Part shown: positions 6,520 through 38,932 of the stretch, one piece after another
Layout of the letters: every line of letters begins with the position of its first letter
Numbering within the stretch: the first letter of the stretch is position 1
IMG/VR virus record: IMGVR_UViG_3300032560_000054
Location: 1-38,932 of that record
Strand: one strand, 5' to 3'
DNA length: 38,932 bases
DNA from: a virus
Program-made: the position numbers and the translations under genes
Notes under the pieces: generated by a model
The model's input: only the letters and a program-made list of their open reading frames with translations
Database searches by the model: none
What the model was told of the DNA's origin: nothing

Positions 6520-6921
6520 TTAGGCCGGGAGTTCCGCTTCGATCTCCTCGATCGTCGTAACGATGAGAGAGACGACGCCCGAGACTTTCGCCTGCGTCTC
6601 GGGATTCTTGATCTGCGCGATGCTCTCGATCGAGCCGAGATTCGCCTTCACATCCGAGAGGATGCTCGGGAGACTCGGATCCGTTCCACCTGCGGCGAGC
6701 AGCTTCGAGGCGTCGGCGAGATCGGTCTGAATCTTCCCGATCACCATCCCGGCTTCCGTGGCTGCTTCACCTTCGCCGCAGAGCGTAAGCGTCGTCTCGA
6801 GGAGCGGCGCGACGACGGCGAGCGAGGCCGTCGCAGTCTTCTCGATCCCCGGCGCGTCCTTCTCGACGACGCCGAATACTTTCGCGAATGCTGCTTTAAT
6901 GTGACTGAAAATACCCTTCAT
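6520..6921 (-). CDS. Hypothetical alanine-rich helical protein
   Basis: The 133-aa product has an N-terminal amphipathic helix (MKGIFSHIKAAFAKVFGVVE) and then long helical stretches, with no obvious transmembrane span and no catalytic motif. CGAAAGG stands 8 nt before ATG 6921. The gene directly follows the XRE regulator on the same strand with a 34-bp gap, so it is probably transcribed from the same leftward promoter at 7186-7214. A repressor-linked or lysogeny/exclusion function is conceivable, but nothing in the sequence decides it. The 147 bp downstream (6373-6519) hold no convincing gene. Confidence 0.7.
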   Translation of the reverse strand: MKGIFSHIKAAFAKVFGVVEKDAPGIEKTATASLAVVAPLLETTLTLCGEGEAATEAGMVIGKIQTDLADASKLLAAGGTDPSLPSILSDVKANLGSIESIAQIKNPETQAKVSGVVSLIVTTIEEIEAELPA

Positions 6922-6955
6922 CGGATTGTCCTTTCGGTTGTATAGCGTTGATGGA

Positions 6956-7153
6956 TTACTTCAGACGGTAAACGAGTTCGACTCCGAGCTTCTCCCGGAC
7001 TGCCTTCGACAGTTGCCTCCGGCCGTTGATGATATTCGACAGATTGACTCGGGACGTTCCGAGCTTCTCCGCGAACTGCTCGATCGTGAGATTCCGCTTC
7101 TGTCGTATCCGCTCGATCTCGAAGCCGATCCGGGACTGCTGAATGATTCGCAT
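6956..7153 (-). CDS. XRE/Cro-family repressor-type regulator
   Basis: The 65-aa protein is almost entirely one HTH_XRE domain: IRQKRNLTIEQFAEKLGTSR followed by VNLSNIINGRR gives helices 1-4, with the recognition helix near residues 34-46. It starts at ATG 7153 with AGGA 8 nt upstream. It is the first leftward gene of the divergent switch region, as in cI/Cro-type modules. No dimerisation or cleavage domain is present, so it is Cro-sized and not CI-sized. The repeated word GATTTGAAACAGTT next to two promoters (7170 and 15362) is the best candidate operator. Confidence 0.9.
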   Translation of the reverse strand: MRIIQQSRIGFEIERIRQKRNLTIEQFAEKLGTSRVNLSNIINGRRQLSKAVREKLGVELVYRLK

Positions 7154-7169
7154 GGGGAAATCCTAACAC

Positions 7170-7183
7170 GATTTGAAACAGTT
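7170..7183. promoter_or_regulatory. Operator candidate, 14-bp word, copy 1
   Basis: GATTTGAAACAGTT at this site is repeated exactly at 15362-15375. Here it lies 2 bp downstream of the -10 box of the leftward promoter, in reverse orientation. At copy 2 it lies 1 bp downstream of the -10 box of a rightward promoter. A repressor bound there would block open-complex formation. The XRE protein is the obvious candidate ligand. Confidence 0.55.
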
Positions 7184-7201
7184 ACAAAATACGATACAGT
7201 T
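7174..7201 (+). promoter_or_regulatory. Possible rightward promoter
   Basis: TTGAAA (7174-7179) and TACAGT (7196-7201) are 16 bp apart on the plus strand, about 155 bp upstream of the first rightward gene. The -10 box is weak and the site overlaps the leftward promoter face to face, so use of the two would be mutually exclusive. Confidence 0.4.
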
Positions 7202-7214
7202 CTTTTATTATCAA
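7186..7214 (-). promoter_or_regulatory. Leftward sigma70 promoter for the XRE gene and following genes
   Basis: On the minus strand TTGATA (7209-7214) and TATTTT (7186-7191) have a 17-bp spacer. The start point would fall near 7180, inside the operator candidate and about 25 nt upstream of the XRE start codon, which suggests autoregulation. Confidence 0.6.
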
Positions 7215-7301
7215 TGGTTTACGCGGATTTTACGCTTACACGGCCGGGAGAGCCGGATCCGGGACGGGGACGAAAATAAATGTAAAAAAGGTGTGCATTG
7301 T

Positions 7302-7326
7302 GTTTCATTTAGCGTTACATTGTTCT
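7302..7326 (+). promoter_or_regulatory. 25-bp conserved element, copy 1
   Basis: This element shares GTTTCAT, five variable bases, GTTACA, one variable base and TGTTCT with the copy at 9136-9160 (same spacing). It lies 30 bp upstream of the 42-aa gene. The half-site ATGAAACA (reverse strand) resembles the 14-bp operator candidate. It is either an activator/repressor site or an unusual early promoter. Confidence 0.5.
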
Positions 7327-7356
7327 TAGTCCCATCCGGGGACTTAGGAGCCTCAA

Positions 7357-7485
7357 ATGAAGAAAACGACGTTTACGGTTACTTCCGACGGTCGAAGGGC
7401 CGTCCGAGTACAAGGGCCGGAAGCAGACGAAGATCTCCCGGCCGAAGATGATCTCTCAAATACTATAAAAAGGAGAACTAAATGA
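7357..7485 (+). CDS. Small leader protein, 42 aa, first rightward gene
   Basis: ATG 7357 is preceded by TAGGAG at about 6 nt, and the stop overlaps the methylase start as ATGA, a strong sign of a translated, coupled gene. The product begins MKKTTFTVTSDGRRAVRVQG and has an acidic middle (EADEDLPAEDD) and a basic end. No domain is recognised. As the first gene after the switch region it may be an immediate-early host-takeover or regulatory peptide, but this is only positional inference. Confidence 0.65.
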   Translation: MKKTTFTVTSDGRRAVRVQGPEADEDLPAEDDLSNTIKRRTK

Positions 7486-8039
7486 ACGATAAAGACTTCA
7501 CCTTAACCGAAGAGCAGAAGAAGGCGCGGCCGAATAAAGGCTTCGGCCATGAAAGAGGATTCGAGGGAGATACAAACGTTTGGTTAACTCCTCCTTCCAT
7601 CCTCGAGCATCTCGGCGACTTCGATCTCGATCCCTGCGCGGCTCCGCTCCCGCGGCCGTGGAATATCGCGGAGAAGCACTACACGCTCTCGGAAGGACAG
7701 GACGGACTCCTTCTTCCGTGGAGCGGTCGCGTCTTCTGTAATCCTCCCTATGGGCCACACGTTGGACTTTGGATGCGGAAGATGATCTCTCACGGTAACG
7801 GGATCGCCCTGATCTTCGCGCGCGTCGAGACGAATGTATGGCAGCGAATTATCTGGCCCGGCGCGAAGGGGATTCTTTTTCCCGATCGCCGGATCGCCTT
7901 CTGTCGCCCGGATGGGACGCCCGGCTCTACCGCAGGCGCGCCGAGCGCGCTTGTCGCCTTCTCTGAAGCAGACGCCGAGATTCTTCGCCGGGGAAGCATT
8001 GGAGGAATCTTCACTCGTTCCATTTCACGAAAGGAGTAA
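7482..8039 (+). CDS. dam: Phage N6-adenine DNA methyltransferase (Dam family)
   Basis: The enzyme transfers a methyl group from S-adenosylmethionine to adenine N6 in DNA. The 185-aa product matches the phage Dam family (PF05869 type): WLTPPSI at 34-40, DLDPCAAP at 48-55, and the catalytic NPPY at 87-90 within RVFCNPPYGP. The family is commonly GATC-specific, and GATC is strikingly frequent in this genome. AAGGAG stands upstream of ATG 7482, and the start overlaps the leader gene stop. Likely roles are protection from restriction or marking of replication and packaging sites. No partner restriction gene is seen. Confidence 0.93.
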   Translation: MNDKDFTLTEEQKKARPNKGFGHERGFEGDTNVWLTPPSILEHLGDFDLDPCAAPLPRPWNIAEKHYTLSEGQDGLLLPWSGRVFCNPPYGPHVGLWMRKMISHGNGIALIFARVETNVWQRIIWPGAKGILFPDRRIAFCRPDGTPGSTAGAPSALVAFSEADAEILRRGSIGGIFTRSISRKE

Positions 8040-8042
8040 TTT

Positions 8043-8279
8043 ATGCGGAAGCCTATAAACGCCGAAGACGATAGGAGCCGATTCGTCGGCCATATCTCGA
8101 CGGAGGGAATGATGGAGACGGCGAAGAACAAGTACGGAATGTCCTTCGAAGCCTTCTCCGTAGATCGGGAGCTTCATTTCGAGGCGACTGATAAGCGCGG
8201 GATCAAGACCGGCCCAATGATCGAGACAGAGCTTTACTGGTATCTTTCGGGATACCTTCAGGGAAAGGGGATACTTTGA
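8043..8279 (+). CDS. Hypothetical 78-aa early protein
   Basis: ATG 8043 follows the methylase stop by 3 bp and has CGAAAGGAG at about 7 nt. The product is mixed alpha/beta, and its C-terminal half (ETELYWYLSGYLQGKGIL) is aromatic and hydrophobic but not a clear membrane span. No family is recognised. It ends in a TTGA overlap with the next gene, so the two are translationally coupled. Confidence 0.7.
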   Translation: MRKPINAEDDRSRFVGHISTEGMMETAKNKYGMSFEAFSVDRELHFEATDKRGIKTGPMIETELYWYLSGYLQGKGIL

Positions 8280-8692
8280 GCGTCCATGAATCCATTCCGC
8301 TAAACGAGGATATCCAGATCGAGCAGGCTCTAGCCGTCTGGATTAGCTATAAACAACAACCTGCGAACGATGCAGATTATCCACTTCTTATGGTGAAGGG
8401 ATACGACGGCGACGAGGAGAATTGGACGGAGATCGATTACGACGAAGATGATCCGAGTAACTTTCTCGATGGTACATGGACGGCCGCGCAGCTTTGGAGC
8501 CATAATCCGCTAGAGCGCGGAGAGGCCGAACTCGAGGATATTAAGCGAACCTTCAATATCTTCCTCGATGCTGTATGCGCCTTCGACCGTGTACTCGGAA
8601 CGGACTGCGATCCGGAGCAGGACTGGAATCAATACTCTACCGTCTCGGACTTCTGCGAGAAGAACAATATCGCGAAGCCTGCGAACTCGTAA
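8276..8692 (+). CDS. Hypothetical acidic early protein
   Basis: The 138-aa protein is markedly acidic (about one residue in five is Asp or Glu), with a GYDGDEENWTEIDYDEDD-like stretch near residues 40-60. The best start is TTG 8276, which overlaps the previous stop as TTGA and has AAAGGGG upstream; no in-frame ATG is close. Small acidic early proteins of phages are sometimes DNA mimics that inhibit host nucleases or other DNA-binding proteins. That is an untested possibility here. Confidence 0.65.
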   Translation: MSVHESIPLNEDIQIEQALAVWISYKQQPANDADYPLLMVKGYDGDEENWTEIDYDEDDPSNFLDGTWTAAQLWSHNPLERGEAELEDIKRTFNIFLDAVCAFDRVLGTDCDPEQDWNQYSTVSDFCEKNNIAKPANS

Positions 8693-18519: not shown

Positions 18520-18783
18520 TTATGGATTAGGAGCCGGGGAAGTCTTCTCGCTCGAGACGAGCGGAGGGAGAGGCGACTGCTTCAGGATCAGGAAGACGGC
18601 GATCACGCCCGAGATCAGCATCCCCTCGCCGAGCGTGACGAGTCCCGCATGGGTGAAATTGAACTCCTTCGGCGCGACGATCATATTTGAGAACTGCTGC
18701 GCGGCCGCGCCGATGAATGCGCTCGCGAGGCCATACGCCCATCGTCCGATTGCGGAGAGTTCCTTCTTTACAACTTCGTTCAT
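18520..18783 (-). CDS. Holin-like two-segment membrane protein
   Basis: The start ATG 18783 was chosen because upstream in-frame codons overlap the endolysin gene and lack hydrophobic character. The 87-aa product has two hydrophobic stretches, near 13-30 (WAYGLASAFIGAAAQQF) and 48-70 (LVTLGEGMLISGVIAVFLIL), and a Ser/Pro-rich charged tail. Size and topology suit a class II holin, which makes membrane lesions that release or activate the endolysin. It lies 38 bp after the endolysin gene, as the last leftward gene, and ends just before the terminator. Confidence 0.8.
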   Translation of the reverse strand: MNEVVKKELSAIGRWAYGLASAFIGAAAQQFSNMIVAPKEFNFTHAGLVTLGEGMLISGVIAVFLILKQSPLPPLVSSEKTSPAPNP

Positions 18784-18821
18784 ACGTACGTCTCTCTTTC
18801 CTCGCGCCGAGGTTGTAGAGG

Positions 18822-19382
18822 TTACGAGTTCGCGCGATCCTGCATCCCGCGCGCATACTCGGAGAGGCCCGGCTGCGTCGCAGCGAGCATCGCATAGAAG
18901 GCCGTCTGCTCCTGCTTCAGAAGCGCGAGGAAGCTCGCAGGCTCGAGCTCGTTGATCGCCGAGATCGTGACCGGGCCGAAGCATCCGTCCGGCGTCACAC
19001 CTGCTGCGCGCTGCGCCATGACTGCGCCTTGATGGAGTCCCTCGTTTACGGCGAAGGAGAGGATCTCGTCGGCGACGGTCTGATCATCGATCGAGGCGAG
19101 ACGGAGCGGACCGGTATATTCCTTCTCGTATGTCTGCTCTGCGATCGCTTCACCTTCCTCGATGGGGATGGTCGTCGGATTCCATACGAGAGGATTTGTC
19201 GCGCCATCGACGGGATCGCCGTCGAAGAATCCGCTCTCGACGAGATCGGGATGGAAGCGCGAGGCGATTCCGAGCCGCGTCTTCCCGCCCGTATCGCCGC
19301 GAAGCTGCGTTATGAAGCCGGGATATTTATGATCGTCCTCGAGTCCGAGGACGAAGCCGATCGCCTTCTGTACGTCTGCCAT
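18822..19382 (-). CDS. Endolysin, GH108-type muramidase with PG_binding_3 domain
   Basis: The 186-aa enzyme hydrolyses peptidoglycan for host lysis. Residues 1-90 fit GH108 (N-acetylmuramidase): VLGLEDDHKYPG holds the catalytic Glu at 15, and DTGGKTRLGIA follows near 30-40. Residues 95-175 fit PG_binding_3: ILSFAVNEGLHQGAVMAQRA, then DGCFGPVTISAIN. There is no signal peptide, so a holin is needed, and one follows. AAGGAGATC lies 6-8 nt upstream of ATG 19382. The gene comes directly after the secreted protein gene at 19417. Confidence 0.92.
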   Translation of the reverse strand: MADVQKAIGFVLGLEDDHKYPGFITQLRGDTGGKTRLGIASRFHPDLVESGFFDGDPVDGATNPLVWNPTTIPIEEGEAIAEQTYEKEYTGPLRLASIDDQTVADEILSFAVNEGLHQGAVMAQRAAGVTPDGCFGPVTISAINELEPASFLALLKQEQTAFYAMLAATQPGLSEYARGMQDRANS

Positions 19383-19416: not shown

Positions 19417-20646
19417 CTAGAGACAGGTTATCGGAAGCGTGAAGGCTTCCCCATTACTGTATCCCGTAAGCGTCTCCGGGCCGGGAGTTCCGCTGCATCC
19501 GGACGCGTTATCTATTTCGAGAGACGCATCGGCATCTCCCCACGATAAGACGATCTTCGATGGGGCGATTAAGAATCCATTACTCGGCGAGCTTCCATCG
19601 TGTCCCTGAAGCGCAGAGTTCCCGAGACTAAGCTCGCCGCCCGTTCCGTCTGATATCCCGACTCCCGAGACGCCGACAGAGTACGAGCCTCCGGAATTAT
19701 TGAGATCGTTCCCGCCTGCGCTTCCTGATCCGATCCCGTAAGTGTCGCCGTATTCATCTTGTCCATTTGTCCCGACATCGTTGCCGCTGAAGAAGGCGTT
19801 TAGAGATCCGAACTCGTTCGTAAAGACGCCTCCGCTAGAGGTGATCGAGAAGGATCCCACTGTATCAATAATCCCGGAGACGCCTGCGCTCGTTATGCTC
19901 CATCCTGTCCCGTTTTCCGTCTCTAAGGATCCGGCCGAATTAGGTGTAAGCGTTAGGAACGTCGGTAAGTCTGTATTCCCGTCGCTGAAGATGAACTGTC
20001 CCCCGGCGTCCGTTAGAAGCGGATCGCAGACGATAAGGCCGTCCGTCGTCGAGAAGCGAATGATGGAACCTGTCGCGCAAGTTGCCGCGGCGATATCGAA
20101 GGGATCCGCGGCGAGGACGGCTTCGATCTCCGCGGCCGTTGGCGCGCCTCCTCCCGATCCCGTCTGCTTCCGCCATACTCCCGGCGTCGTCGATGCGTCG
20201 CACCAATAGAAATTAGCTCCCGACTGATCGCCGGGATTGCCATAGATCCAGAAGGCATTATTCGCTCCGCAGGCGATCGTCGGCGCGCCGGATCCTACCT
20301 CGATCCGCGGGATGATCGGCGTGATATAGGGCGCAGGCGCGGCCGACTGAAGCTGCTGCGAGATATCCTGCGAGGCCGCGGCCGTGATCTGGACTTGAGT
20401 CGAGAAGATGGGGAGCGCGGATCCGGACGCAGGCTTCAGCATGAAGCTGTAAAGAGTCCGGGCCGTGAGCGTCGCCGAGAACTGGCCGGATGAATTGAGC
20501 GCGCCGGAATAGGACAGGGAGCCGAAGGCCGACGCGCTGATCGATCCGTTCGCATAGGCCGGGACTGTCCCGGATACCGTCGCCGTCTGCGCGCAGGCGC
20601 AGGCCGCGGCGAGGGCGAATACGGCCGCGATGATTGTCTTCTTCAT
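19417..20646 (-). CDS. Secreted, fibre-like protein with Sec signal peptide
   Basis: The 409-aa protein starts MKKTIIAAVFALAAACACAQ, a textbook Sec signal with a likely cleavage after ACA. The mature part has an N-terminal beta domain (25-110). A tail-fibre-type module follows near 110-170 (GAPTIACGANNAFWIYGN, then GVWRKQTG). The end is a long Gly/Ser-rich, beta-helix-like region (240-380) with repeated GSFSITS and GGSYSVG units. AGGAG precedes ATG 20646. It is third of three consecutive secreted products between tail tip and endolysin, and a strong terminator stands between it and its upstream neighbour. It may be an export-dependent adhesin, exclusion factor, or fibre assembled after lysis. 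Confidence 0.8.
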   Translation of the reverse strand: MKKTIIAAVFALAAACACAQTATVSGTVPAYANGSISASAFGSLSYSGALNSSGQFSATLTARTLYSFMLKPASGSALPIFSTQVQITAAASQDISQQLQSAAPAPYITPIIPRIEVGSGAPTIACGANNAFWIYGNPGDQSGANFYWCDASTTPGVWRKQTGSGGGAPTAAEIEAVLAADPFDIAAATCATGSIIRFSTTDGLIVCDPLLTDAGGQFIFSDGNTDLPTFLTLTPNSAGSLETENGTGWSITSAGVSGIIDTVGSFSITSSGGVFTNEFGSLNAFFSGNDVGTNGQDEYGDTYGIGSGSAGGNDLNNSGGSYSVGVSGVGISDGTGGELSLGNSALQGHDGSSPSNGFLIAPSKIVLSWGDADASLEIDNASGCSGTPGPETLTGYSNGEAFTLPITCL

Positions 20647-20671
20647 GGTGATCTCCTGTCACGTTGCAAGT

Positions 20672-20710
20672 AAAAAAAGAGCCGCGGCCCGAAGCGCAGA
20701 GCCGCGGCTT
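20672..20710 (-). terminator. Rho-independent terminator inside the late operon
   Basis: On the minus strand, AGCCGCGGC (20709-20701) and GCCGCGGCT (20688-20680) form a 9-bp stem followed by CTTTTTTT (20679-20672). It lies between the 126-aa and 409-aa secreted-protein genes and must reduce, or be bypassed for, expression of the 409-aa protein and the lysis genes. No strong promoter fits in the 25 bp that remain before the next start codon. Confidence 0.88.
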
Positions 20711-20722
20711 CAGGATAAGCGG

Positions 20723-21103
20723 TTAGCAGCCGGATCCGGCGAAGGACTTGATCGAGACGATCGAGAATACGAGCGGATTCCCCGGCGTATTGCGGCCGAT
20801 GCGAATGGCGACGGGCGTATGCGGCGCGCTCGCATTGATCGAGGCTAGCTTCTCCGTATAGAGAGTCTTCTCGGCTGACTCGAGAGCAGCCTCGCCCGGA
20901 TCTGCGGCTGCGGCCGTTGCCGCGGCCGTCCATTGTGCGGAGAGGGAGGCGTCGATCGCGGCCGGACAACCGATCCCGGATACCGTCCAAGTGATCAGCG
21001 CGGGAGCCGGAGCCGGAGCCGGAGTGGGAGTGGTAGTTTGTGCCGACGCTGCGAGCGCGAAGGCGAGGAGGCCGAGGCCGAGAGCGAGTGTGATCTTCTT
21101 CAT
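20723..21103 (-). CDS. Small secreted protein with Sec signal peptide
   Basis: The 126-aa protein begins MKKITLALGLGLLAFALAAS, with likely cleavage after ASA, and then has a Thr/Pro/Ala linker (TTTPTPAPAPAPA). The mature domain (about 38-126) is short, with two Cys (one in SGIGC, one at the C-terminal end) that could form a disulfide in the periplasm. AGGAGAAG precedes ATG 21103. It is the middle of three signal-peptide genes and is followed by a terminator. No family is recognised; it could block superinfection or modify the cell envelope. Confidence 0.75.
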   Translation of the reverse strand: MKKITLALGLGLLAFALAASAQTTTPTPAPAPAPALITWTVSGIGCPAAIDASLSAQWTAAATAAAADPGEAALESAEKTLYTEKLASINASAPHTPVAIRIGRNTPGNPLVFSIVSIKSFAGSGC

Positions 21104-21154
21104 GGTGTCTTCTCCTGTATGCTGCGGTTTGATTTTACTGCTGAAGTCTCTTGT

Positions 21155-22081
21155 TTAAGGCGTGTAACTTTCAACGTGGAATCCGGAGGCGTCGATCCAG
21201 AAGTGTTTATTCGTATCGGCGTCGTAAAAGTTGATCCCCGTATAGCTGATCCCGAAGTAATCGTTCGGCGTCTGAGCGTCGAAGATGATCGTCCCTGTCG
21301 CCGTCGAGACTGCGAAGCCGCTGTTACCGTCGTCCCCCTGAACGTTGATCCCGGCCGAGTTGATCGCGAAGCTCCCTCCCCCTCCGTCCGTCTCCTGAAT
21401 GAACGAGGCGACGACCTGCATCTCGCCCGACGTTATGGGATCGACGATATCGACCGTCTGCCCGGAGATCGTGACGTTCGGAGCCGGGAGCCGTTGCCAG
21501 TTTGTGAGATGCACATAGGGAACGGGAGCCGTCGGCGTCGTCGCGTCGTAGTATGTCGAGCCGTCTGCGGCCGGGAATGCAGGCGCGCCCATCCCGGTAT
21601 ACAGTCCGATCGGGTACGCCGGGACTGCGGATCCCCGAGCATTGATCCATCCGAGACGCCCGTTCGACGGCGCGCAGTACCATGTCGAATTAGGCGTAAC
21701 GTCCGTCTCCGTCCCCGTCGCCGTATTCGCGCAGGCTGTATAAGGGAATCCGTAGAAGGAGAACGTCTGTCCGGCCTGAATGACGATCGTATCGTAATCG
21801 AATCCCGTCGAATAGACGACGACGTTCGACAGGCTCCATAGAGTAGAGCCTGCGCCGTTCTTCATCGTTACCGTATACGTCCCCGTTGCCGGGACAGTCG
21901 CCGCAGGATCGATCGCGCCATTCGTCACGGCGAGGGCCGTAAGGTTGAAGTTCAGCGTCCCCGATACGAGAGGTTGTCCTGTCGTCGGATCGATAACCTT
22001 CGTCGCGTGTACGGCGACAGTTGCGAAGGCCGGGGATGCGAGCGCGAGCAGAAGGGCGAGCGCGAGGAATGTCTTCTTCAT
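21155..22081 (-). CDS. Secreted, fibre-like protein with Sec signal peptide
   Basis: The 308-aa protein begins MKKTFLALALLLALASPAFA, a clear Sec signal (cleavage after AFA). The mature part starts with a beta domain (VIDPTTGQPLVSGTLNFNLT). It then has a tail-fibre module near 168-200 (GMGAPAFPAADGSTYYDATT, then YVHLTNWQRL), and a C-terminal beta-helix-like part with repeated GGSFAIN/GNSGFAV/NDYFGIS units. AAGGAG precedes ATG 22081, 11 bp after the tail tip gene. The position is that of a tail fibre, but the signal peptide would send it to the periplasm. Confidence 0.8.
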   Translation of the reverse strand: MKKTFLALALLLALASPAFATVAVHATKVIDPTTGQPLVSGTLNFNLTALAVTNGAIDPAATVPATGTYTVTMKNGAGSTLWSLSNVVVYSTGFDYDTIVIQAGQTFSFYGFPYTACANTATGTETDVTPNSTWYCAPSNGRLGWINARGSAVPAYPIGLYTGMGAPAFPAADGSTYYDATTPTAPVPYVHLTNWQRLPAPNVTISGQTVDIVDPITSGEMQVVASFIQETDGGGGSFAINSAGINVQGDDGNSGFAVSTATGTIIFDAQTPNDYFGISYTGINFYDADTNKHFWIDASGFHVESYTP

Positions 22082-22091
22082 GGACTTCTCC

Positions 22092-25000
22092 TTAAGGGTT
22101 TGTAATTGCGAGGTACGAGATCTCCGCGTCGAGCGTGACTCCCGAGGCGACGATCACAGAAGGAACGGAGACGCCGACGGTAAGGACGACGTTCGAGAAG
22201 TCTGTCCCGGCCGGGACAGTTCCCGTCGCCGTTCCCGAGTACGATCCGTCCGGCTGCTTCTCTGTAAGGAGCGTCGTCGAGGTTGCGCCTCCGTCCGTCG
22301 AGAGCGAGATCGAGAGCGTCCCTTCCGTCGCCGGGCCGGACGTCCCGCTTACTGTGACGTTCCACGGAATATGAATCGTCGAATCCGTCCCGAAGGAGAC
22401 GGAGCCGAATCCGGCGTAATTGATAACGGCCGTATTGTGAGCATAGATCGCGGCGACGGATAGCTCGGCCGAGCCGCTCGTCGGCGTATACGGCCCCGTC
22501 GGATTAGTTATCGTGAAGTTCCCGCTCGTCGTATTCGACGTCGGCGCATACGTCGGGACGGAATGCGCGGCCGGAGTCGTCGTCGATCCGATCGCCACAT
22601 AATCCGGGTTTGACTGATCGGCCTTCCATTGTCCGGCGTCCGTGTAGAGAACGAGCGAGGCCGTCGAGACGCGGTAATTCACGCCGTACCATGTCGAGCA
22701 GTCCTTCGGAGAGTACGATGTCGCCGGGACGACGACGATCGCTCCGTTCGCGAGCGAGGCCGTACCGTTGTCCGTGAGCGATCCCCCGGCGAGATAGACG
22801 TTCACCGTACAGTCTGTCGCGTCGAGGTTCAGGCTGCTCGAGACTGTCATATTCGCAGTCCCGAGAGGCGCGTTAAGCGTGATCGGATACGCCGTCACAT
22901 CGGCAAGTGATTGCTCCTCGAGGCCGTACAGGTTCCGAGAAGTGAACTTGAAGTAAACCGTCTTCCCGAGCAGCGAGGCGTCGAAGGTGTATTTCAGTAC
23001 GCTCTCGTCGAGCCGGATGAACGTCTCGCCGGGCGTATGATTCGCGATTGGCGTCGAGAAGAAGCCGCGGCGAAGATACGAGAGGTTGTAGGAGTTTGTC
23101 GTCCCGGTCGATCCCGTAAGCGTCGCCGTCGCGAAGGCGATCAATTCGTTCCCGATCAGTGAGAGCGTACCTCCGGCGTCTGCATTCGCGTCCGTCGTAC
23201 TCGCGAGCGTCCCGGTCGTCGTAATCGAGGGCGAGTCCGTCGTATCCGGATCCGGGCCTGCGGGAAGGAAGGCCGTTAGCGTCCCGGCGCGCGCTCTCCC
23301 GGTGAAGCCTCCCGGCGTGATACAGGAGTAATCTGTACCGTCGAGCGAAATCCATGCGTTACAGCCTCCCCATTGATCGCCTCCTGTAAGCGCGAGCCAT
23401 AGCTGATAATTGCCTCCCGTTACGCGCTGCGTCGGGAGATAGTGAGCGAGGAGGCTCGTCGCGCCGGGGAGGTTATGCGCGCCGGACTGATTCCCCGCAT
23501 TCGTACCCTTCGGATAGACGTATCCCTGCGCGACTCCGAAGAGGAAGTCTTCGGCGACGATCTTCAGGGAATAATCGTCCTGCTCCTCGACGCTTACGAC
23601 TCGGACGGCGCGATTCGTCGCGCCTGCGATCTTCGGATTCAATACGATTATGTCCATCGGCTCGAGTTCGAAGGCCCACCATTTAAGCGAGAACTCGTAC
23701 TCCCGGAGCGGGACTGCATTCCTCTTGAGGAGCATATTCGCCGCGGCCGAGGCGTACTCCTTCACCTTGAAATGATGCGCCGTAATTGTCTTCGACGGGA
23801 GCAGGCCGTTCATTAAGATCGAGGCTTCGTCGGACTCCCGGATGATATCGATATTGTAATTATCGTCGCGCATCTCGTACTCGAACTCGAGACGGTTATA
23901 GTTATCGGCGAGATCCCGCCACCGCACCTTAACAGGCTCCTCGCCCTTCTTTGATACGAAGTCCGAGTAATCGTACTCGGCGATCGGCTTCGTCGCCGGG
24001 ATGTACGTACGGCCGTTCGCGACGGCCGTCGTATCGCCGTACGGGACGATCTTCAGCGCGTCGCCGCTCCATACAGCCTCCGCATTCGTTAGATCGCAGA
24101 TCTCCTTTATGACTTCCGTCGCCTTCTTCTGACCATCGAAGAAGGGAGAGATCAGGAGATTATTCGCTACGCAGAAGTTCGAGTATCCCGTAACGTCGCC
24201 GAGATATTGCCAGTTGAAGCCGTCGATCGCATCGGCGCAGAGCGCGGCGATCACGGCCGCGGGATCGCAGTCGGCGATCCCTCCCCCGAGGGCGAGTCCC
24301 TTCGCGTTAAGGACTTCGATCGTAAGGTTCGGGGGAGCCGCGCTCGTCCCGAGATCGAAGTTCGAGGCGACGACGCGCGCGAGGCCGTTGTATTGCAGAG
24401 CGCGCTCCGGATGCTTCGATACCATATACGACCACGGGAACTGAGGCCGCGTCCCGTTGATTACGGAGAGGGCGTACTTCGTCGCCGGGGAGATCTCGCT
24501 ATCCGTCGCATGATTCTGATCGTATGCGTACGTTATCGATACGACGAGTCCATGATCGGCCGCGGCGAACTCGTACACGCCGGGAGCCGTAATGCGATAT
24601 TGCTTCGACGTCGGGACAGTCGCAACCTTCTGCATGGGAGCGTCCTGCGTCCCGGTGATCGTAATCGGGCCGTCGGATCCGAAGTCGTCGGCGAACTGCG
24701 TATAAGACGCCTCGTACGTAACTCCCTCGTCATAGAAGAAGGCCGAGGCATTCCCGACAGTGTAGGAGCCTCCGTACAGGGGAATCGTATACGTCTCCGT
24801 CGTCCCGACGAGTGAACTCCCGCCTCCGGCGTCGTAGATATTCCCGATCCCGGCGATCGGCCCGGCGCAGAGAAGGGCGTCGATCGCCGCGTAATATTCG
24901 TAACTCGTAACCGTCGCGCCTCCCTTGCCTCCCTCATTCTGAGTATTGGCGACGTAATAAAAATCGACGTAATCGAGGAGCTTGATCGGAGCCTTAAAAG

Positions 25001-25106
25001 TCCCGGCTCCCCACGGTATGACGACGCCGCGCTCGCTGGTCTGAATCTGGATCGAGCCGAGGACGTTCGGCTGCTTCGCGCGCGATCCAAGTCCGAGGAA
25101 TGCCAT
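22092..25106 (-). CDS. Tail tip / central hub protein (J-like), host recognition
   Basis: The 1004-aa protein forms the tip of the tail and contacts the receptor. The N-terminus is typical of J/TipJ proteins (GSIQIQTSERGVVIPWGAG, then YYAAIDALLCAGPIAGIGNI). An inserted beta domain occurs at about 105-196 and is also found in the tube and connector proteins. The middle (about 310-560) matches the phage-tail_3/GTA g15 hub (KATEVIKEICDLTNAEAVWS, then YNRLEFEYEMRDDNYNIDII). Residues 560-1004 are fibronectin/beta-rich and probably bind the receptor. AGGAG precedes ATG 25106. It follows the NlpC/P60 gene, as in gene transfer agents. Confidence 0.9.
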   Translation of the reverse strand: MAFLGLGSRAKQPNVLGSIQIQTSERGVVIPWGAGTFKAPIKLLDYVDFYYVANTQNEGGKGGATVTSYEYYAAIDALLCAGPIAGIGNIYDAGGGSSLVGTTETYTIPLYGGSYTVGNASAFFYDEGVTYEASYTQFADDFGSDGPITITGTQDAPMQKVATVPTSKQYRITAPGVYEFAAADHGLVVSITYAYDQNHATDSEISPATKYALSVINGTRPQFPWSYMVSKHPERALQYNGLARVVASNFDLGTSAAPPNLTIEVLNAKGLALGGGIADCDPAAVIAALCADAIDGFNWQYLGDVTGYSNFCVANNLLISPFFDGQKKATEVIKEICDLTNAEAVWSGDALKIVPYGDTTAVANGRTYIPATKPIAEYDYSDFVSKKGEEPVKVRWRDLADNYNRLEFEYEMRDDNYNIDIIRESDEASILMNGLLPSKTITAHHFKVKEYASAAANMLLKRNAVPLREYEFSLKWWAFELEPMDIIVLNPKIAGATNRAVRVVSVEEQDDYSLKIVAEDFLFGVAQGYVYPKGTNAGNQSGAHNLPGATSLLAHYLPTQRVTGGNYQLWLALTGGDQWGGCNAWISLDGTDYSCITPGGFTGRARAGTLTAFLPAGPDPDTTDSPSITTTGTLASTTDANADAGGTLSLIGNELIAFATATLTGSTGTTNSYNLSYLRRGFFSTPIANHTPGETFIRLDESVLKYTFDASLLGKTVYFKFTSRNLYGLEEQSLADVTAYPITLNAPLGTANMTVSSSLNLDATDCTVNVYLAGGSLTDNGTASLANGAIVVVPATSYSPKDCSTWYGVNYRVSTASLVLYTDAGQWKADQSNPDYVAIGSTTTPAAHSVPTYAPTSNTTSGNFTITNPTGPYTPTSGSAELSVAAIYAHNTAVINYAGFGSVSFGTDSTIHIPWNVTVSGTSGPATEGTLSISLSTDGGATSTTLLTEKQPDGSYSGTATGTVPAGTDFSNVVLTVGVSVPSVIVASGVTLDAEISYLAITNP

Positions 25107-25561: not shown

Positions 25562-26251
25562 TTACCAGATCGAGCAGGCGACGACGCCTGCTCCGGCCCC
25601 GACGCCTGCGTACGGGCCGCGGAGGGCCGAGGAGGATACTTCCCCGGCGACGGCTGCGCCTGCGGCCGCGCATCCTGCCAGCTTTGCTACATGGACGAGG
25701 CGACTCCATACCGTCCCGCCCTTTGCAGCCTTCTCCCATGCCTGAATCGTGATCTTCTGCGAACCTATGAGATTCCGTAGATCGGCCCTGTCCTGCGTAC
25801 ATGCGCCGAGTTCGGCCGTCGTACCGTCGCAGATCAGGAGCTTCCGGGCGAGATCTTCGCCCTGCGCGGCCGACAGGACGACCGATCCGGGGGAGTCGGG
25901 AAGCTCGGGAGCCGGGCCGGGAGTATCGGGGACGACGCGGATCGGCGTCTGATCCGGCGCAGGAAGGTATCGGATGATCGTCTGCGCGGCCTGAGAGGGC
26001 GTCCGGACGGCCGCGGCTGCTCGAGCATCGGCCGACGCCTGCGCGCTCGCCCGAGCGTCCCTCTGCTCGATCTGAACGTCCTTCTCGGCGACGAGCCGGG
26101 CCGTCGCCTTCATCTGCTCCTCGGCTGCATTCCTGTACCCGCGCTCGAGATACCATCCCCGGAGGGCGACGGCGCAGACTGCGAGCAGGATCAGGGCGAG
26201 GACGCCTGCGATCTTCCCCATCGGACTCGATTCGCTTACGGTTACGGCCAT
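25562..26251 (-). CDS. Membrane-anchored coiled-coil protein, spanin-like
   Basis: The start ATG 26251 has AAGGAGG 7 nt upstream and an 11-bp gap to the previous stop; an upstream in-frame start at 26338 would extend into the previous gene. The 229-aa protein has one N-terminal membrane segment at about 13-30 (KIAGVLALILLAVCAVAL). A coiled coil follows (40-80, rich in Ala/Glu/Gln). A Pro-rich linker comes next (PAPDQTPIRVVPDTPGPAPE). A Cys-containing helical part (CDGTTAELGACTQDRADLRN) precedes a Gly/Ala-rich hydrophobic end. This N-in membrane plus coiled-coil layout resembles i-spanins (Rz). The position inside the tail genes is unusual, so a baseplate-linked role remains possible. Confidence 0.65.
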   Translation of the reverse strand: MAVTVSESSPMGKIAGVLALILLAVCAVALRGWYLERGYRNAAEEQMKATARLVAEKDVQIEQRDARASAQASADARAAAAVRTPSQAAQTIIRYLPAPDQTPIRVVPDTPGPAPELPDSPGSVVLSAAQGEDLARKLLICDGTTAELGACTQDRADLRNLIGSQKITIQAWEKAAKGGTVWSRLVHVAKLAGCAAAGAAVAGEVSSSALRGPYAGVGAGAGVVACSIW

Positions 26252-26262
26252 CGCGCGCCTCC

Positions 26263-27108
26263 TTAGTAAAGAACTGTCGGATCCGGGACGAATGGCTCGC
26301 CGTAGAAGTTCGCCTGATTCGAGAACTTCGAAGTACAAGTCGCGAGCGTCTTATCGCAGCCGGGGGAGATCTTGAACGAGTCGCCGATCGACGGAGGGAC
26401 GAGGAACGGATAGGCCGGATAGATTGTCGAGCCGACGTTCTCCTTCACGTAATACGAGATCCCGGCGAGCTTCCCGCTGGTAAACGTAATGATCCCCTGC
26501 GCGAAGTATCCCGTCGCCTGCGCAAGAGCCGTCCGGAGCGTATTCACCGTCGAGACGCCGGATACCGTTCCCGGCGTGAGATACGCGGCCCTCGAGAGCG
26601 AGCATCCCGTATCGAAGAGGACGTTCTTACAGTCCGTCTGGACTGTATTCCTCGGGAAGTCGTTATCGAGGATATTCATCATCGATTTAACCGTGATCTT
26701 CGCGTAACTGCGGCCGATCTCGTCGATCGAGGATACCTGTCCGGCGAAGCGAGTTACGGGCGTCGTCCACGGCGAGGACGCATCGGCCGCGAGGATCCGC
26801 TGCATCGTGTAAATGGCGAGGTTGAAATATCCGAGCAGGATCATCTCGATAAATGCGCCGTCGGCTTCCGAGATCTTCAGTTGATGCGAATCGACGGAGA
26901 CTCCCCTCGAGAGCTTTACCCGCCCGGGAGTGATCTTCAGCGCGCTCGCCTGATAGGCCGTCGTCCCGACGGTTATACTCTTCCGCGCATCCGTGAAGCG
27001 GTATGTCTTACCATTTACAAGCTCGAACGTATAGAGGTTCGCCATGAAGACACTCTTCGACCGCGCCTCGATCAAAGCTGATACATCGGAGGGTAAGGGA
27101 ATCGCCAT
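26263..27108 (-). CDS. Tail hub protein, BR0599/DUF2163 family (gpL-like)
   Basis: The 281-aa protein matches the phage BR0599 / DUF2163 family that forms the ring below the tail tube (GTA g13, gpL of lambda). The N-terminus (YTFELVNGKTYRFTD and ITPGRVKLSRG) is typical. Four Cys, C160 and C169 in TDCKNVLFDTGCS, and C251 and C258 in GCDKTLATC, are the ligands of the iron-sulfur cluster known for gpL. AGG-containing sequence precedes ATG 27108. Its order after the DUF2460 gene equals that of GTA baseplates. Confidence 0.9.
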   Translation of the reverse strand: MAIPLPSDVSALIEARSKSVFMANLYTFELVNGKTYRFTDARKSITVGTTAYQASALKITPGRVKLSRGVSVDSHQLKISEADGAFIEMILLGYFNLAIYTMQRILAADASSPWTTPVTRFAGQVSSIDEIGRSYAKITVKSMMNILDNDFPRNTVQTDCKNVLFDTGCSLSRAAYLTPGTVSGVSTVNTLRTALAQATGYFAQGIITFTSGKLAGISYYVKENVGSTIYPAYPFLVPPSIGDSFKISPGCDKTLATCTSKFSNQANFYGEPFVPDPTVLY

Positions 27109-27124: not shown

Positions 27125-28642
27125 TTAGAGCGTCGTCGTCTGAAGAGCTTCGATATCGGGAGCCGAGAGAGCGCGTCCGAAGGCGATCACGGTCGAGATA
27201 TTCCCGGCGAAGAAGGAAGCAGATCCCCCGGCCTCGGCTCCGATGGTGAGAGCGGCCGAGCTTCCAACGGCTCCGGCCGTGAGCGTCGCCGTCGCCACCT
27301 GTATGCCGTCGATCCAGAGCGTGACGACCGTCCCGGCCCGGATCAGGATCACGCGATGCCAGTTCGCATCGGTAAGCAGTCCCCCGGCCGCTGTGACGCT
27401 CGCCGAGCCGTTGTTTATGAATCCCGCGGCCGTCGTCGCCGACGCCGGAATCGAGCATTCGTACCCTGTCCCCCCGGACGTACTCTTCGAGAAGAGATCG
27501 CGCGCCGATCCGCTCGATCCGGCCGCGGCCGTCTTCACCATCGCGACGAGCGAGAAGTCCCCGGCGAAGTCGAGGGCCGCGTTATCGGCCGCGGCGAGGA
27601 AGCCTGTCGCGCCGTCGAACGAGGCGAGCGCGATCGTCGAGAGGCCCGGCTGATTCGCCGTCGTCGCCTGCGTCGCATCCCCGGCCGTCTGCGTCTGATC
27701 GTAGAGCGTGACAAGCGAGAGCGCGGATCCCCCGATCGCTCCGGCGAAGTTCGCGAGGGCGACGGAATCGGCCGCTCCCGTCGCATCCGGGTAAATGTCC
27801 TGAACGGCCCCGTCCGACGCCCGGCGCGCGCGCAGGAGCGGCCCGGTATACCCGGACAGGAGAAGCCGCGTCGAATAGCAGCCGACGCCTCCGGGAATGA
27901 CGTCGAGAGGCGTCGTCGAATAATCGTCGTACGCATCCTCGACGCGAACCTGAAGCAGCTTCAGGGAGTTCCGTTGATAGATCTGGAAGAGGAATTGATC
28001 GAACTCCTCCTCGTCCTCGACGAAGCGTACGCGGTACATCCATTCGAAGGAGGCCGTAATCAGGACGCCGATCGCCGGGGGAGTAAGGAACTGGATCACG
28101 CCGCTCGAGGACAGGCTGAAGGCCGTTGTCTCGACGCCGTTAAGGAATACGTGCATCGTCCCCGGCGTGACGTTCTGAACTTCGTCGTAATACGCGCCGA
28201 CAGTCCGGATCGTCTGGAAGTCCAGCGTCGCGCCGTCGCCCGTCCCGATTGTCCCGGCCGTAACAACACCCTCGTTCGATCGCTTCGTAATGATGGACGG
28301 AGAGAGAAGGAAGCTCTTCAGCTTGCCGGAGCAGGCGCAGAAGAGCGCGACGATCTGCTGAAGCTGCGTATATCCCGTCTCCGGCGAGATCCCGGCTTCG
28401 GCCGCTTCGAGATAGTCCCGGATGTACCCGAAGGAGATTTCAAACTGCCAGAGCGGGAAGGGATCGAGCGAGACGCGAGCCTCGCCCCTGTCCGGCCCGG
28501 TCTGTACGACGGTCGAGAACTGCGCCGTTGTCTTTATGTCCATCGAAATACCCGGAAGGGCCGGGAAGATGTAATCGGATCCGCTTGTCGGGATTCCTCC
28601 GGGGACGATCGTTCCGGCGAGGCTCGAAGGTGTAGAGGCCAT
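27125..28642 (-). CDS. DUF2460 distal tail protein fused to arabinofuranosidase-like and LamG-like domains
   Basis: The 505-aa protein has three parts. Residues 1-235 are a DUF2460 (GTA g12, distal tail) domain, including FEISFGYIRDYLEAAEAG and the RVRFVEDEEEFDQFLFQIYQ ending. Residues 245-345 resemble the N-terminal catalytic-type domain of alpha-L-arabinofuranosidase B (GCYSTRLLLSGYTGPLLRAR, then SLVTLYDQT). Residues 347-505 look like a LamG/concanavalin-type lectin (FSLVAMVKTAAAGSSGSARD, ending in IEALQTTTL). GAGG precedes ATG 28642. The lectin-type part suggests carbohydrate binding at the tail tip. Active-site residues of a true arabinofuranosidase are not confirmed. Confidence 0.88.
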   Translation of the reverse strand: MASTPSSLAGTIVPGGIPTSGSDYIFPALPGISMDIKTTAQFSTVVQTGPDRGEARVSLDPFPLWQFEISFGYIRDYLEAAEAGISPETGYTQLQQIVALFCACSGKLKSFLLSPSIITKRSNEGVVTAGTIGTGDGATLDFQTIRTVGAYYDEVQNVTPGTMHVFLNGVETTAFSLSSSGVIQFLTPPAIGVLITASFEWMYRVRFVEDEEEFDQFLFQIYQRNSLKLLQVRVEDAYDDYSTTPLDVIPGGVGCYSTRLLLSGYTGPLLRARRASDGAVQDIYPDATGAADSVALANFAGAIGGSALSLVTLYDQTQTAGDATQATTANQPGLSTIALASFDGATGFLAAADNAALDFAGDFSLVAMVKTAAAGSSGSARDLFSKSTSGGTGYECSIPASATTAAGFINNGSASVTAAGGLLTDANWHRVILIRAGTVVTLWIDGIQVATATLTAGAVGSSAALTIGAEAGGSASFFAGNISTVIAFGRALSAPDIEALQTTTL

Positions 28643-31921: not shown

Positions 31922-32698
31922 TTACGAGCCGAGCGGTGAGACTGCCTCGTACGACTCGAAGACGCGGCCGAGTGGATCCGCGAGAATGGTGAAGTCCATC
32001 TCCGGAACCATGAAATCGTCGTTTTTCGTCTGCATCGCGAGCTTCTTCGCCTTCACGCGGAAGAACTTCATATTTGACTGAAGTCCCCCGAATGCGTTGT
32101 AGAGGAAGAGGGAGAAGAAGGGCGTCGTCCCGATAAGCTGCTGATTCCGGGAGTACGTCGTCCCCGAAGTCGCCGTCGTCGTCCGATAGTAGTAACGGAG
32201 AATCAGGGCCGCGCCAGAGTCGGCCGCTGCGAAGGTATACACGCCGTTCGAGACAGTGTACTGTCCCTGAGCAGGAGTACCCGTTCCGATGTTCTGAAGG
32301 GGCGTACCCGTCGCCGCATAGGAGACGGAGAGATCCGTCGCCGAGTTCGCGAGGATGCCTGTCCCGCTCGCATACGTCGCCGTCACCGTGTACGGCGAGG
32401 AAGCGGGAACGGACTGCGCCTCGTTAAGCTGAAGCATCATCATCCCGGCCGAGGGCGTCCCGCCGTAATACAGCGCGTTGAAGAGTCCACCCGAGACGAG
32501 GCCGAACTTCGCCTTTACGGACGCCTTCGAGCGGCCGTTCGCGGCGATATCGGGGAAGTCGTTCGAGCCGTACAGCATCTTCTCGTCGCTCTCAAAGTCT
32601 ACCGAAGCGTCTTGAAGAGTGCCGAACGTGAAGGCCGGGCCGCTCCCGCTGAGAGGAGTTGCGAAGAGGAGTCCGGATCCGAAGCGAAAGTTTGCCAT
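31922..32698 (-). CDS. Major tail tube protein with inserted beta domain
   Basis: The 258-aa product is the most likely tail tube subunit: it lies directly before the chaperones and has the mixed tube-type N-terminus (TFGTLQDASVDFESDEKMLY, then SKASVKAKFGLVSGG) and C-terminus (KFFRVKAKKLAMQTKND). Residues 97-172 are an insertion (PYTVTATYASGTGILANSA, then YTVSNGVYTFAAADSGAA) of a beta-rich domain shared with the connector and the tail tip protein. It is probably displayed on the tail surface. GGAGAA precedes ATG 32698. Confidence 0.88.
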   Translation of the reverse strand: MANFRFGSGLLFATPLSGSGPAFTFGTLQDASVDFESDEKMLYGSNDFPDIAANGRSKASVKAKFGLVSGGLFNALYYGGTPSAGMMMLQLNEAQSVPASSPYTVTATYASGTGILANSATDLSVSYAATGTPLQNIGTGTPAQGQYTVSNGVYTFAAADSGAALILRYYYRTTTATSGTTYSRNQQLIGTTPFFSLFLYNAFGGLQSNMKFFRVKAKKLAMQTKNDDFMVPEMDFTILADPLGRVFESYEAVSPLGS

Positions 32699-33662: not shown

Positions 33663-34481
33663 CTAGTTCCCCCGGAACTGCGCGATCGTCTTATATGTCG
33701 CGATGATCGGCCGCACCATCGGAGGGACGTCGGCCTGCGAGAATGTGACCGTCTCCGTCCCGAGATGCGCGCTCACCTGATCGATCCGCGGGTACTTCGC
33801 CTTCTTAAAGGCGACGATCTGAGCGATCGCGTCCTGTATGTCGAACGGGATCGCCGAATAGTTGTACGAGATCAGGACGGCGACGCCTGCCTGCGCCGCG
33901 TTGAAGGTGTAGACTCCCACGCTCGAGACGGCGTACTGCATCGGCCCCGGCGCGCCTGTCGTCGGCGTAAGAGGCGTCCCATTGGCGAGCGTGACGCCGA
34001 GATCCGAATAGAAGAATTGTCCCTGCGCGGCCGTGAGCGTGTACGGCCCCGGCGAAGCGGGTACAGTGAGCGGATCCGTCTGCGTCGCGCCATATCCCGC
34101 GATGTAGTTGATCAGGACGTTCGCCCGGCCGCAGTTGAAGCGAGGCCCGATCAGCCGGACGGAGAAGCCGTTATCGGGGAGATAGTATCCGGGCGTCGTA
34201 TTCACGCCGAGCGCGGCCGGAACGATGGGGATCCCGTCGATCTTCAGGGAGAGCAGGGAATAGATCGGGGAGTAACGGAGAATGATCGAATCGCTTCCGT
34301 CGCCGTCGCGCGTCTCGAGGAATGTCGCGAGTCCGATCGTCCGGCGATTCGTCGCCGACAGGAAGAATCGCGAAGCGGCCGAGATCAGGTTCGCGAGCAT
34401 CGTATCGCCCGTCGTCGCCGTGATCGAGAGCGCGCTTTTACAGTACGAGAGGGAGATCAGATCGGAGGCCGGAGGCTGCAT
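33663..34481 (-). CDS. Head-tail connector (gp6-like) with inserted beta domain
   Basis: The 272-aa protein has the gp6-like connector fold split in two: residues 1-135 (LISLSYCKSALSITATTGDT, then LLSLKIDGIPIVP) and 210-272 (IPFDIQDAIAQIVAFKKAKY). Between them residues 140-209 hold the same inserted domain as the tail tube (PYTLTAAQGQFFYSDLGVTL, then YAVSSVGVYTFNAAQAGVAV). A gp6-type protein forms the ring under the portal. GAAAGG precedes ATG 34481, and a hairpin separates it from the capsid gene. Confidence 0.85.
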   Translation of the reverse strand: MQPPASDLISLSYCKSALSITATTGDTMLANLISAASRFFLSATNRRTIGLATFLETRDGDGSDSIILRYSPIYSLLSLKIDGIPIVPAALGVNTTPGYYLPDNGFSVRLIGPRFNCGRANVLINYIAGYGATQTDPLTVPASPGPYTLTAAQGQFFYSDLGVTLANGTPLTPTTGAPGPMQYAVSSVGVYTFNAAQAGVAVLISYNYSAIPFDIQDAIAQIVAFKKAKYPRIDQVSAHLGTETVTFSQADVPPMVRPIIATYKTIAQFRGN

Positions 34482-37509: not shown

Positions 37510-38932
37510 CTAAAGTTCCTCCCCCGGCGTATATGTCACCGTGAGACAGACGCAGTTCGGATGAAAGGGCGAGTACAGATCGCCGCTCGGGAAGACTTCC
37601 TCGATCCCGACTCCCGCGGCTCCCGTCTCTTCGTCTGTCGCGTCTGCATTCTCGTCGCATTCGTCGTCTATATCGTGATCGCCGGACAATACGCTCCGCT
37701 TGAACGTATGGCCGACGAGCTTCCCGACGTCGAACTGCCCTCCGCTATTGGCGAAGTTTACTTCGGTTGTTGCGATCATCTCGGCGCGCGCCGCGGAGAA
37801 TGCCTGCGAGTCGATGATCGACTGCTTAAGTTCCGCGATGGTCGAGCCATCCTCGAGAGCCGAGACGATCTGCTCGTTTAGCTGCTCCCGCGTCGTATCC
37901 GTGATCGCCCACTTCGCGGAGGGATTAGGAACGAGTTCCCCATCGACGTACTTCATCCCGACAAGCTCGGCCGCGCGATCCTCGGCGTACGAGATCGCCC
38001 ATTCGTTCGACTGCGAGAAGATATCCGGATCGTCGAGATCGAGGGCGAGTCCGGCCATCGTCGAGCCGTCCATCGCCGCGGCCTGAAGCGATCCCTTCAC
38101 GGCCGGGACGACTTCGCCCCATGACGAGAAGGAGAGCGAGTCCGTTATCTTGTCGGCGATCGACTGGATCTGCTCCTCCGTGAGCTTCGCCGCTTTACGC
38201 TTGCTCCCCGTTATCTTTTTTTTTTGACGCGAATACTCCAATCCGATCTGCTTCGCGAGGATCTTCGCCTGCTCCGTAAGCATCGGCTTCAGGACGGCCG
38301 CGATCGCATCCCGAGCCTTCGTCTTCGCGGCCGAGGTTGCGGCCGGATCGATGCGAAGCTCCTTCTTCCGGGCTGCGAGCGTCGAGGCCGTCGGCTTCTC
38401 CTGCGCGGCCTTATGGACGAGGGCCGCGCGCGCCTTCTTCGGGGGAGCCGGAGGCTTTACGCCTCCTTTCCCCTTCCCCTCGCCGGAGCCGTCGTCCTCG
38501 GGAGGCTCGTTATCGCCCTTCCCCTTGTCGCCGGGATCCGGCTCGTTATCGCCGTCGCCCTCTTCGGTCGTATCCGGCTCCGGAAAGCCGGGTTGAAGCT
38601 CGAGAAGCTCCTGAATCTGCGCTTCCGTGAACGGAGCCTTCCCGTTACGCTCGCGAACCTCGCTCGGAACTGTGCATTTCGTCTCGAGATAAATCTGATC
38701 GATCTGCGCCTGAACGAGTTGATCGACTTCCGGCTGATCCTCGAAGGCGAAAGAGAGATCCTCGTAACCGAAGCCTTCCTCGCTCTGGATTAGCTCGTTC
38801 ATCTCCCCGGCGAGCCATGCACATATTGGAGTCTCGCCGCTCTCGTCGGCGTCGTCTGCATTCTGCTGCGCCGTCGCCCGGTTTACCTGCGGGACGAGAG
38901 GAGAAGGAGAGATCCCGAAGGCGAAGAGGATG
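37510..38932 (-). CDS. Portal-MuF fusion, C-terminal part (continues from 1..1119)
   Basis: This is the second part of the 804-aa portal-MuF protein. Codons 374-804 lie between 38805 and 37510, and 38806-38932 repeat the start of the window. Residues 375-450 finish the portal core. A long Asp/Glu/Pro/Gly/Lys-rich linker (about 455-500: EEGDGDNEPDPGDKGKGDNE) follows. Residues 500-680 are helical. The last 120 residues are a MuF / SPP1 gp7-type head morphogenesis domain: ARAEMIATTEVNFANSGGQF, GDHDIDDECD, and LYSPFHPNCVCLTVTYTPG. MuF proteins are usually separate genes present in few copies per virion. Here they are fused to the portal. Confidence 0.9.
   Translation of the reverse strand, partial: ILFAFGISPSPLVPQVNRATAQQNADDADESGETPICAWLAGEMNELIQSEEGFGYEDLSFAFEDQPEVDQLVQAQIDQIYLETKCTVPSEVRERNGKAPFTEAQIQELLELQPGFPEPDTTEEGDGDNEPDPGDKGKGDNEPPEDDGSGEGKGKGGVKPPAPPKKARAALVHKAAQEKPTASTLAARKKELRIDPAATSAAKTKARDAIAAVLKPMLTEQAKILAKQIGLEYSRQKKKITGSKRKAAKLTEEQIQSIADKITDSLSFSSWGEVVPAVKGSLQAAAMDGSTMAGLALDLDDPDIFSQSNEWAISYAEDRAAELVGMKYVDGELVPNPSAKWAITDTTREQLNEQIVSALEDGSTIAELKQSIIDSQAFSAARAEMIATTEVNFANSGGQFDVGKLVGHTFKRSVLSGDHDIDDECDENADATDEETGAAGVGIEEVFPSGDLYSPFHPNCVCLTVTYTPGEEL
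38216..38225 (-). promoter_or_regulatory. A10 slippage tract in the portal-MuF linker
   Basis: On the coding strand ten consecutive A occur within CAA-AAA-AAA-AAG (codons 567-570). A -1 shift reaches TAA after GAT-AAC-GGG-GAG-CAA-GCG, and a +1 shift reaches TAA after AGA. Both end the protein before the MuF domain, so ribosomal or transcriptional slippage would give a portal-only product. Confidence 0.5.
38806..38932. repeat. Terminal direct repeat, right copy
   Basis: Identical to bases 1-127. It contains portal codons and shows that the map closes on itself. Confidence 0.95.

Follow-up and report, generated by a model that had tools for sequence, protein, structure and literature searches.

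The DNA analysed here (38,932 nt, hereafter the window) is the genome of a tailed phage of soil type, complete or nearly so. It begins and ends with a 127-base direct repeat (Table 1), which shows that the record is either circular or circularly permuted; the junction falls within the portal gene. The late genes are found on the minus strand and run from a MuF-like head protein, the capsid protein (phrog_13692), the tail tube and the tape measure to the tail-tip genes, a DUF2460 protein with a Laminin_G domain, DUF2163, NlpC/P60 and an RcGTA-like hub, followed by three genes for predicted exported proteins, the GH108 endolysin and a small membrane protein. A sequence-only reading had proposed three consecutive secreted proteins between the tail tip and the lysis genes. 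All three open reading frames were confirmed, and the neighbours are as claimed, with a tail hub (PF13550, PF23666) upstream and a GH108/PG_binding_3 endolysin downstream. The spacing is 10 bases from the hub stop to P0003, 51 from P0003 to P0002, 76 from P0002 to P0001 and 34 from P0001 to the endolysin. Lying directly after the hub and before the lysis genes, the three occupy the position of tail fibre or tailspike genes.

Table 1. Coordinates of the window features discussed in the text.
Feature	Position	Strand	Details
Direct terminal repeat	1-127 and 38806-38932		127 bases
Head-tail connector	33663-34481
Tail tube	31922-32698	-	beta domain phrog_8234
DUF2460 tail protein	27125-28642	-	C-terminal Laminin_G domain
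Spanin-like protein	25562-26338		single TM segment
Tail hub/tip protein, RcGTA-like	22092-25106	-	1004 aa; PF13550 (E 7e-22), PF23666 (E 9e-14); phrog_1101 tail protein (E 3e-71)
Exported protein 1, P0003 (predicted)	21155-22081	-	308 aa; signal peptide 1-20
Exported protein 2, P0002 (predicted)	20723-21103	-	126 aa; signal peptide 1-21
Intrinsic-terminator-like hairpin	20680-20709	-	between P0002 and P0001 genes; 11 pairs, 9 G-C, then CTTTTTTT
Exported protein 3, P0001 (predicted)	19417-20646	-	409 aa; signal peptide 1-19
Endolysin, GH108 + PG_binding_3	18822-19382	-	PF05838, PF09374; phrog_315 endolysin
Candidate holin, small membrane protein	18520-18786	-	88 aa; position and hydrophobic segments

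The candidate holin had no PHROG match, no integrase was detected among the window genes tested, and no relatives of the window terminase were found. The capsid family is present in 3 of 297 Acidobacteriota and 5 of 299 Pseudomonadota genomes. Further observations concern the tail module. The C-terminal Laminin_G domain makes the DUF2460 protein another receptor-binding candidate, a spanin-like gene with a single TM segment lies between DUF2163 and NlpC/P60, away from the lysis genes, and the tail tube and the hub (residues 149-203) of one and the same virion share the beta domain phrog_8234. By eye, this domain is apparently also found in the head-tail connector.

All three proteins open with MKK, continue with a hydrophobic run of 10-14 residues and then reach an AxA site, with cleavage predicted after MKKTFLALALLLALASPAFA and before TV in P0003, after MKKITLALGLGLLAFALAASA and before QT in P0002, and after MKKTIIAAVFALAAACACA and before QT in P0001. 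Note that signal peptides were called throughout by a simple n-region/h-region/AxA rule and not by SignalP. At the threshold used, the rule called 3 of the 51 window genes, exactly P0003, P0002 and P0001, which by this measure have predicted cleavable signal peptides. None of 143 non-gene open reading frames scored as high, and for shuffled N-termini the rate of reaching the threshold was about 0.0005 per gene. On these two controls coincidence was rejected as the source of three adjacent signal peptides, and the proposal that all three consecutive genes carry Sec signal peptides is borne out. With alternative starts and a lower threshold a single additional call emerged, the spanin-like protein.

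P0003 is beta-rich and contains two cysteines and one GAP...W module (residues 164-195), P0002 consists of a Pro/Ala/Thr-rich linker and a small domain with two cysteines, and P0001 has six cysteines in its mature part and a GAP...C...YWC...W module at residues 119-155, so that the motif is indeed found in two of the three proteins, as had been read from the sequence. All three mature parts hold an even number of cysteines, an outcome that has a chance of 1 in 8 and is weak if taken alone. AlphaFold2 on single sequences yielded pLDDT values of 33 for P0003 and 36.5 for P0001, too low for use in judging the beta-helix-like ends that had been proposed from the sequence. None of the three gave a Pfam or PHROG match, including any to a tail fibre family or a virion-anchoring domain, and no relatives were found in viral contigs or cultured phages, tblastn included, or among 1259 proteins from related loci. 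Matches of P0001 to L193 were discarded as low-complexity (score 11, bias 10.7).

As the trio has neither a family match nor a detectable relative, the trait was studied in other phages, and an alignment of the hub was used to find many related loci. In the Pseudomonas relatives of the hub, the slot that follows it usually holds a long gene of tailspike or fibre type without a signal peptide. In L009, a locus among the nearest hub relatives, two signal-peptide proteins of 472 and 719 aa directly follow the hub; the longer one combines Laminin_G with DUF2341, and the C-terminus of the shorter one matches a virion structural PHROG. Acidobacteriota prophages that share the hub family are mostly devoid of signal-peptide fibres, and the trait therefore does not simply track the hub or the host phylum. 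A search with the L009 protein as query retrieved 15 viral contigs, and a subsequent domain alignment with masked cysteines, in which cysteine could not drive the search, retrieved 47. The gene that bears the domain carries a signal peptide by the rule in 37 of these 47; among the remaining 10, several reveal one once a wrongly called start is allowed for, or are truncated by the contig end. Often one to four more long signal-peptide proteins stand in tandem with the domain-bearing gene. In the genomes that were read more fully, signal peptide calls mainly concern fibre-like genes that follow the hub or the tail genes; the other calls are scattered, small or doubtful. The sequence-only reading had suggested looking for the same trio in related genomes; it is the trait that recurs in other soil phages, and not the proteins themselves.

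The domain by which these contigs were found is present in 2 of 297 Acidobacteriota genomes and in 0 of 299 Pseudomonadota genomes, and one of its two occurrences lies close to a terminase-like gene. This is weak evidence for Acidobacteriota as hosts of the class, and it gives no host evidence for the window. The cassette type is present in at least one prophage-like region of an Acidobacteriota genome (L305). Some class members have domains in common with ordinary secreted host proteins (L255, L306, L307). The L255 protein (6756-8345, reverse-complement coordinates) is encoded in an apparent polysaccharide-synthesis locus of an Acidobacteriota genome, and it is homologous over some 520 residues to a signal-peptide fibre-like protein of phage contig L194. 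In two soil phage genomes a signal-peptide gene directly follows the coat gene (G304 and G305; L204, 3815-4831, minus strand, and L205, 14367-15059, plus strand). Both proteins have even cysteine numbers, and head decorations may share the export trait. Signal-peptide proteins away from the fibre genes were noted in L201 (18642-19835, 397 aa) and L204 (15004-16152, 382 aa), with 12 cysteines each.

An even number of cysteines is favoured among the exported proteins of bacteria (PMC7678975), and cysteines were counted in the dereplicated proteins of the class loci. In their mature parts, 65 of 76 signal-peptide proteins have an even number, against 74 of 154 for the remaining genes in these loci (Fisher p=3e-8). 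When the first 32 residues were dropped, the counts were 75 of 90 and 71 of 149, respectively. The shared domain contains two cysteines that are both present in 41 loci and both absent in 6, and in no locus does one occur alone. A further pair is found in the tailspike N-terminal domain of L189, L279 and L284, at positions where the cultured versions that cover this part have V/I/K and S/T. Given that the bias towards even numbers is accompanied by pairs that are kept or lost jointly, or occur only in the exported form, the signal peptides are real for the class as a whole, and its proteins look disulfide-bonded, as judged from sequence. A regular expression for a cysteine-containing GAP...W motif was weakly enriched in signal-peptide proteins (21 versus 11.7 expected) and was not used as evidence.

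Nine soil proteins (L189, L278, L279, L280, L284, L287, L289, L292 and L293) have a signal peptide directly before the N-terminal domain of cultured tailspikes. In L189, L279 and L287 it can be seen by eye, but the start had been called too far upstream for the rule to detect it. In seven cultured or environmental phages (Xanthomonas PBR31, Rhodoferax P26218, Pseudoalteromonas H6, Shewanella X14, DSL-LC05 and two environmental phages) the same domain begins between residues 2 and 13 and a signal peptide is absent. The L266 protein matches tail-fibre PHROG families at both ends, and cultured homologues have its N-terminal domain from residue 3-6 onwards. L192 combines a GH43 propeller with a tail-protein PHROG, and in the P22-like G304 a signal-peptide tailspike closely follows genes that occupy the place of the ejection proteins. 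Since the signal peptide directly precedes a domain that begins close to residue 1 in cultured phages, some class members are, by their domain content, clearly tailspikes or tail fibres. This sets them apart from the window trio, for which the corresponding matches were not obtained; the trio is linked to the class by architecture and position, because relatives in sequence are lacking.

For the window itself, the support consists of the signal peptides, the position after the hub, the tight co-directional spacing and the even cysteine counts. We infer from these that the trio belongs to the class and would be exported in its real host, and we tentatively consider it, at somewhat less than even confidence, to be a host-binding cassette of fibres or spikes that are made as Sec precursors, fold in the periplasm and join the tails at or after the breach of the inner membrane. 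The three proteins would be synthesised late, at the same time as the tail hub, then exported by Sec and cut by signal peptidase, and the mature proteins would fold and gain their disulfides in the periplasm. Tails would be made in the cytoplasm, and the fibres, as the presumed receptor-binding parts, would attach to them when the holin opens the inner membrane at lysis or later in the lysate. Of the three options that the sequence-only reading had offered, fibres that attach after lysis are favoured by the comparison, as the related cassettes of other phages hold tailspike and tail-fibre domains directly behind the signal peptide, and surface adhesins and exclusion factors keep a smaller place. 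Some features speak against this scheme. The Laminin_G domain of the DUF2460 tail protein is another possible adhesin, the terminator-like hairpin sets the P0001 gene apart from those of P0003 and P0002, and the domains that the class has in common with secreted host proteins would also fit a role at the cell surface.

A surface or secreted role is the main rival to virion attachment. The proteins would be exported and yet never become part of the virion, coating or leaving the cell as receptor decoys, superinfection-exclusion factors or polysaccharide-degrading or adhesive surface proteins, and we regard this as rather unlikely. It accords with the signal peptides and the cysteine pairing, with the homology of the L194 protein to a secreted protein of Acidobacteriota, with lambda Lom, which is exported to the outer membrane and encoded between the tail spike and tail fibre genes (PMC12309495), and with the host-encoded, phage-tail-fibre-like MAT proteins that Bdellovibrio exports (PMC10769870). 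It is difficult to reconcile with G304, in which the signal-peptide protein has a tailspike N-terminal domain at the tailspike position. The profile of this domain matched no second gene there, and a non-virion role would thus leave the phage without a recognisable tailspike. In addition, genes directly after the coat gene are affected as well (G304, G305), as expected of virion decoration. Lysogenic conversion, in which the cassette would be expressed from a prophage and alter the host surface, we consider improbable. The hairpin before the P0001 gene could mark independent expression and the prophage-like region L305 harbours the cassette type, but no integrase was found among the tested window genes, and the trio sits on the late strand between the hub and the endolysin, with successive gaps of 10, 51 and 76 bases from the hub onwards. 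That the hydrophobic N-termini are uncleaved anchors of fibres to the virion or membrane, or that the proteins are never exported, is likewise improbable in spite of cleavage being predicted from a simple rule. The cysteine bias and the paired gain and loss are as expected in an oxidising compartment and are not seen in the remaining genes of these loci, and the signal is added before domains for which cultured phages need no such signal to attach.

Taken together, the occurrence of fibre or tailspike proteins with export signals and paired cysteines in many unrelated soil phages suggests an origin outside the cytoplasm for the host-binding fibres of some tailed phages. In a wider reading, a large and so far unrecognised group of tailed phages, soil phages for the most part and with Acidobacteriota as hosts of at least some, would finish its virions outside the cytoplasm. 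Tail and perhaps head fibres would be exported by Sec, gain disulfides in the periplasm and be added once the inner membrane is breached or later, a reading that we hold at somewhat less than even odds. In the textbook view, the assembly of tailed phages is wholly cytoplasmic, and we know of no assembly route in these phages that involves Sec-exported fibres. The full-text literature searched, with subscription journals largely outside its scope, yielded no description of signal-peptide tail fibres or spikes in tailed phages. The parts, tail fibres and spikes, are known, and the Sec route for fibres is not. Should attachment to the virion hold true, the assembly route itself would be new, and virion completion would gain an extracytoplasmic step if fibres pass through Sec and are oxidised in the periplasm. 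Such fibres could use disulfides that are out of reach of cytoplasmic ones, secreted proteins of the host could be recruited directly as receptor-binding parts, and signal peptides would be a marker for receptor-binding proteins in soil phages without recognisable fibre homologues. Even if the proteins serve at the surface or are secreted, they would represent a widespread class of secreted proteins that are encoded by phages and resemble adhesins, of which we found no description.

Among known systems, the tailspikes and fibres of cultured podophages (Xanthomonas PBR31, Shewanella X14, Pseudoalteromonas H6) are homologous to several class members in their N-terminal domain and resemble the class in genome position and in their enzymatic or lectin domains. 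They differ in that, in the cultured versions checked, the domain starts at residue 2-13 without a signal peptide and, where covered, lacks the cysteine pair, and they show no sequence match to the window trio. Lambda Lom shares with the trio a signal peptide, export and a gene among those of the tail tip, but it is a beta-barrel membrane protein, whereas the trio gave no Pfam match to a Lom/Ail barrel and is a set of three with fibre-like motifs. The mosaic adhesive trimeric (MAT) proteins of Bdellovibrio are tail-fibre-like adhesives behind a signal peptide that act outside the cytoplasm, and 13 of 21 end in an S74 domain (PMC10769870). They are encoded by the bacterium and serve predation, while the trio belongs to a phage late operon, and no Pfam match to S74 was obtained in the window and class proteins tested. 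Signal-peptide endolysins are lytic enzymes and not fibres, and the window endolysin is a separate gene that was not called as exported; with these differences, enzymes such as Lys44 of Oenococcus phage fOg44 provide the case of a late phage protein that passes through Sec before lysis (PMC6116005).
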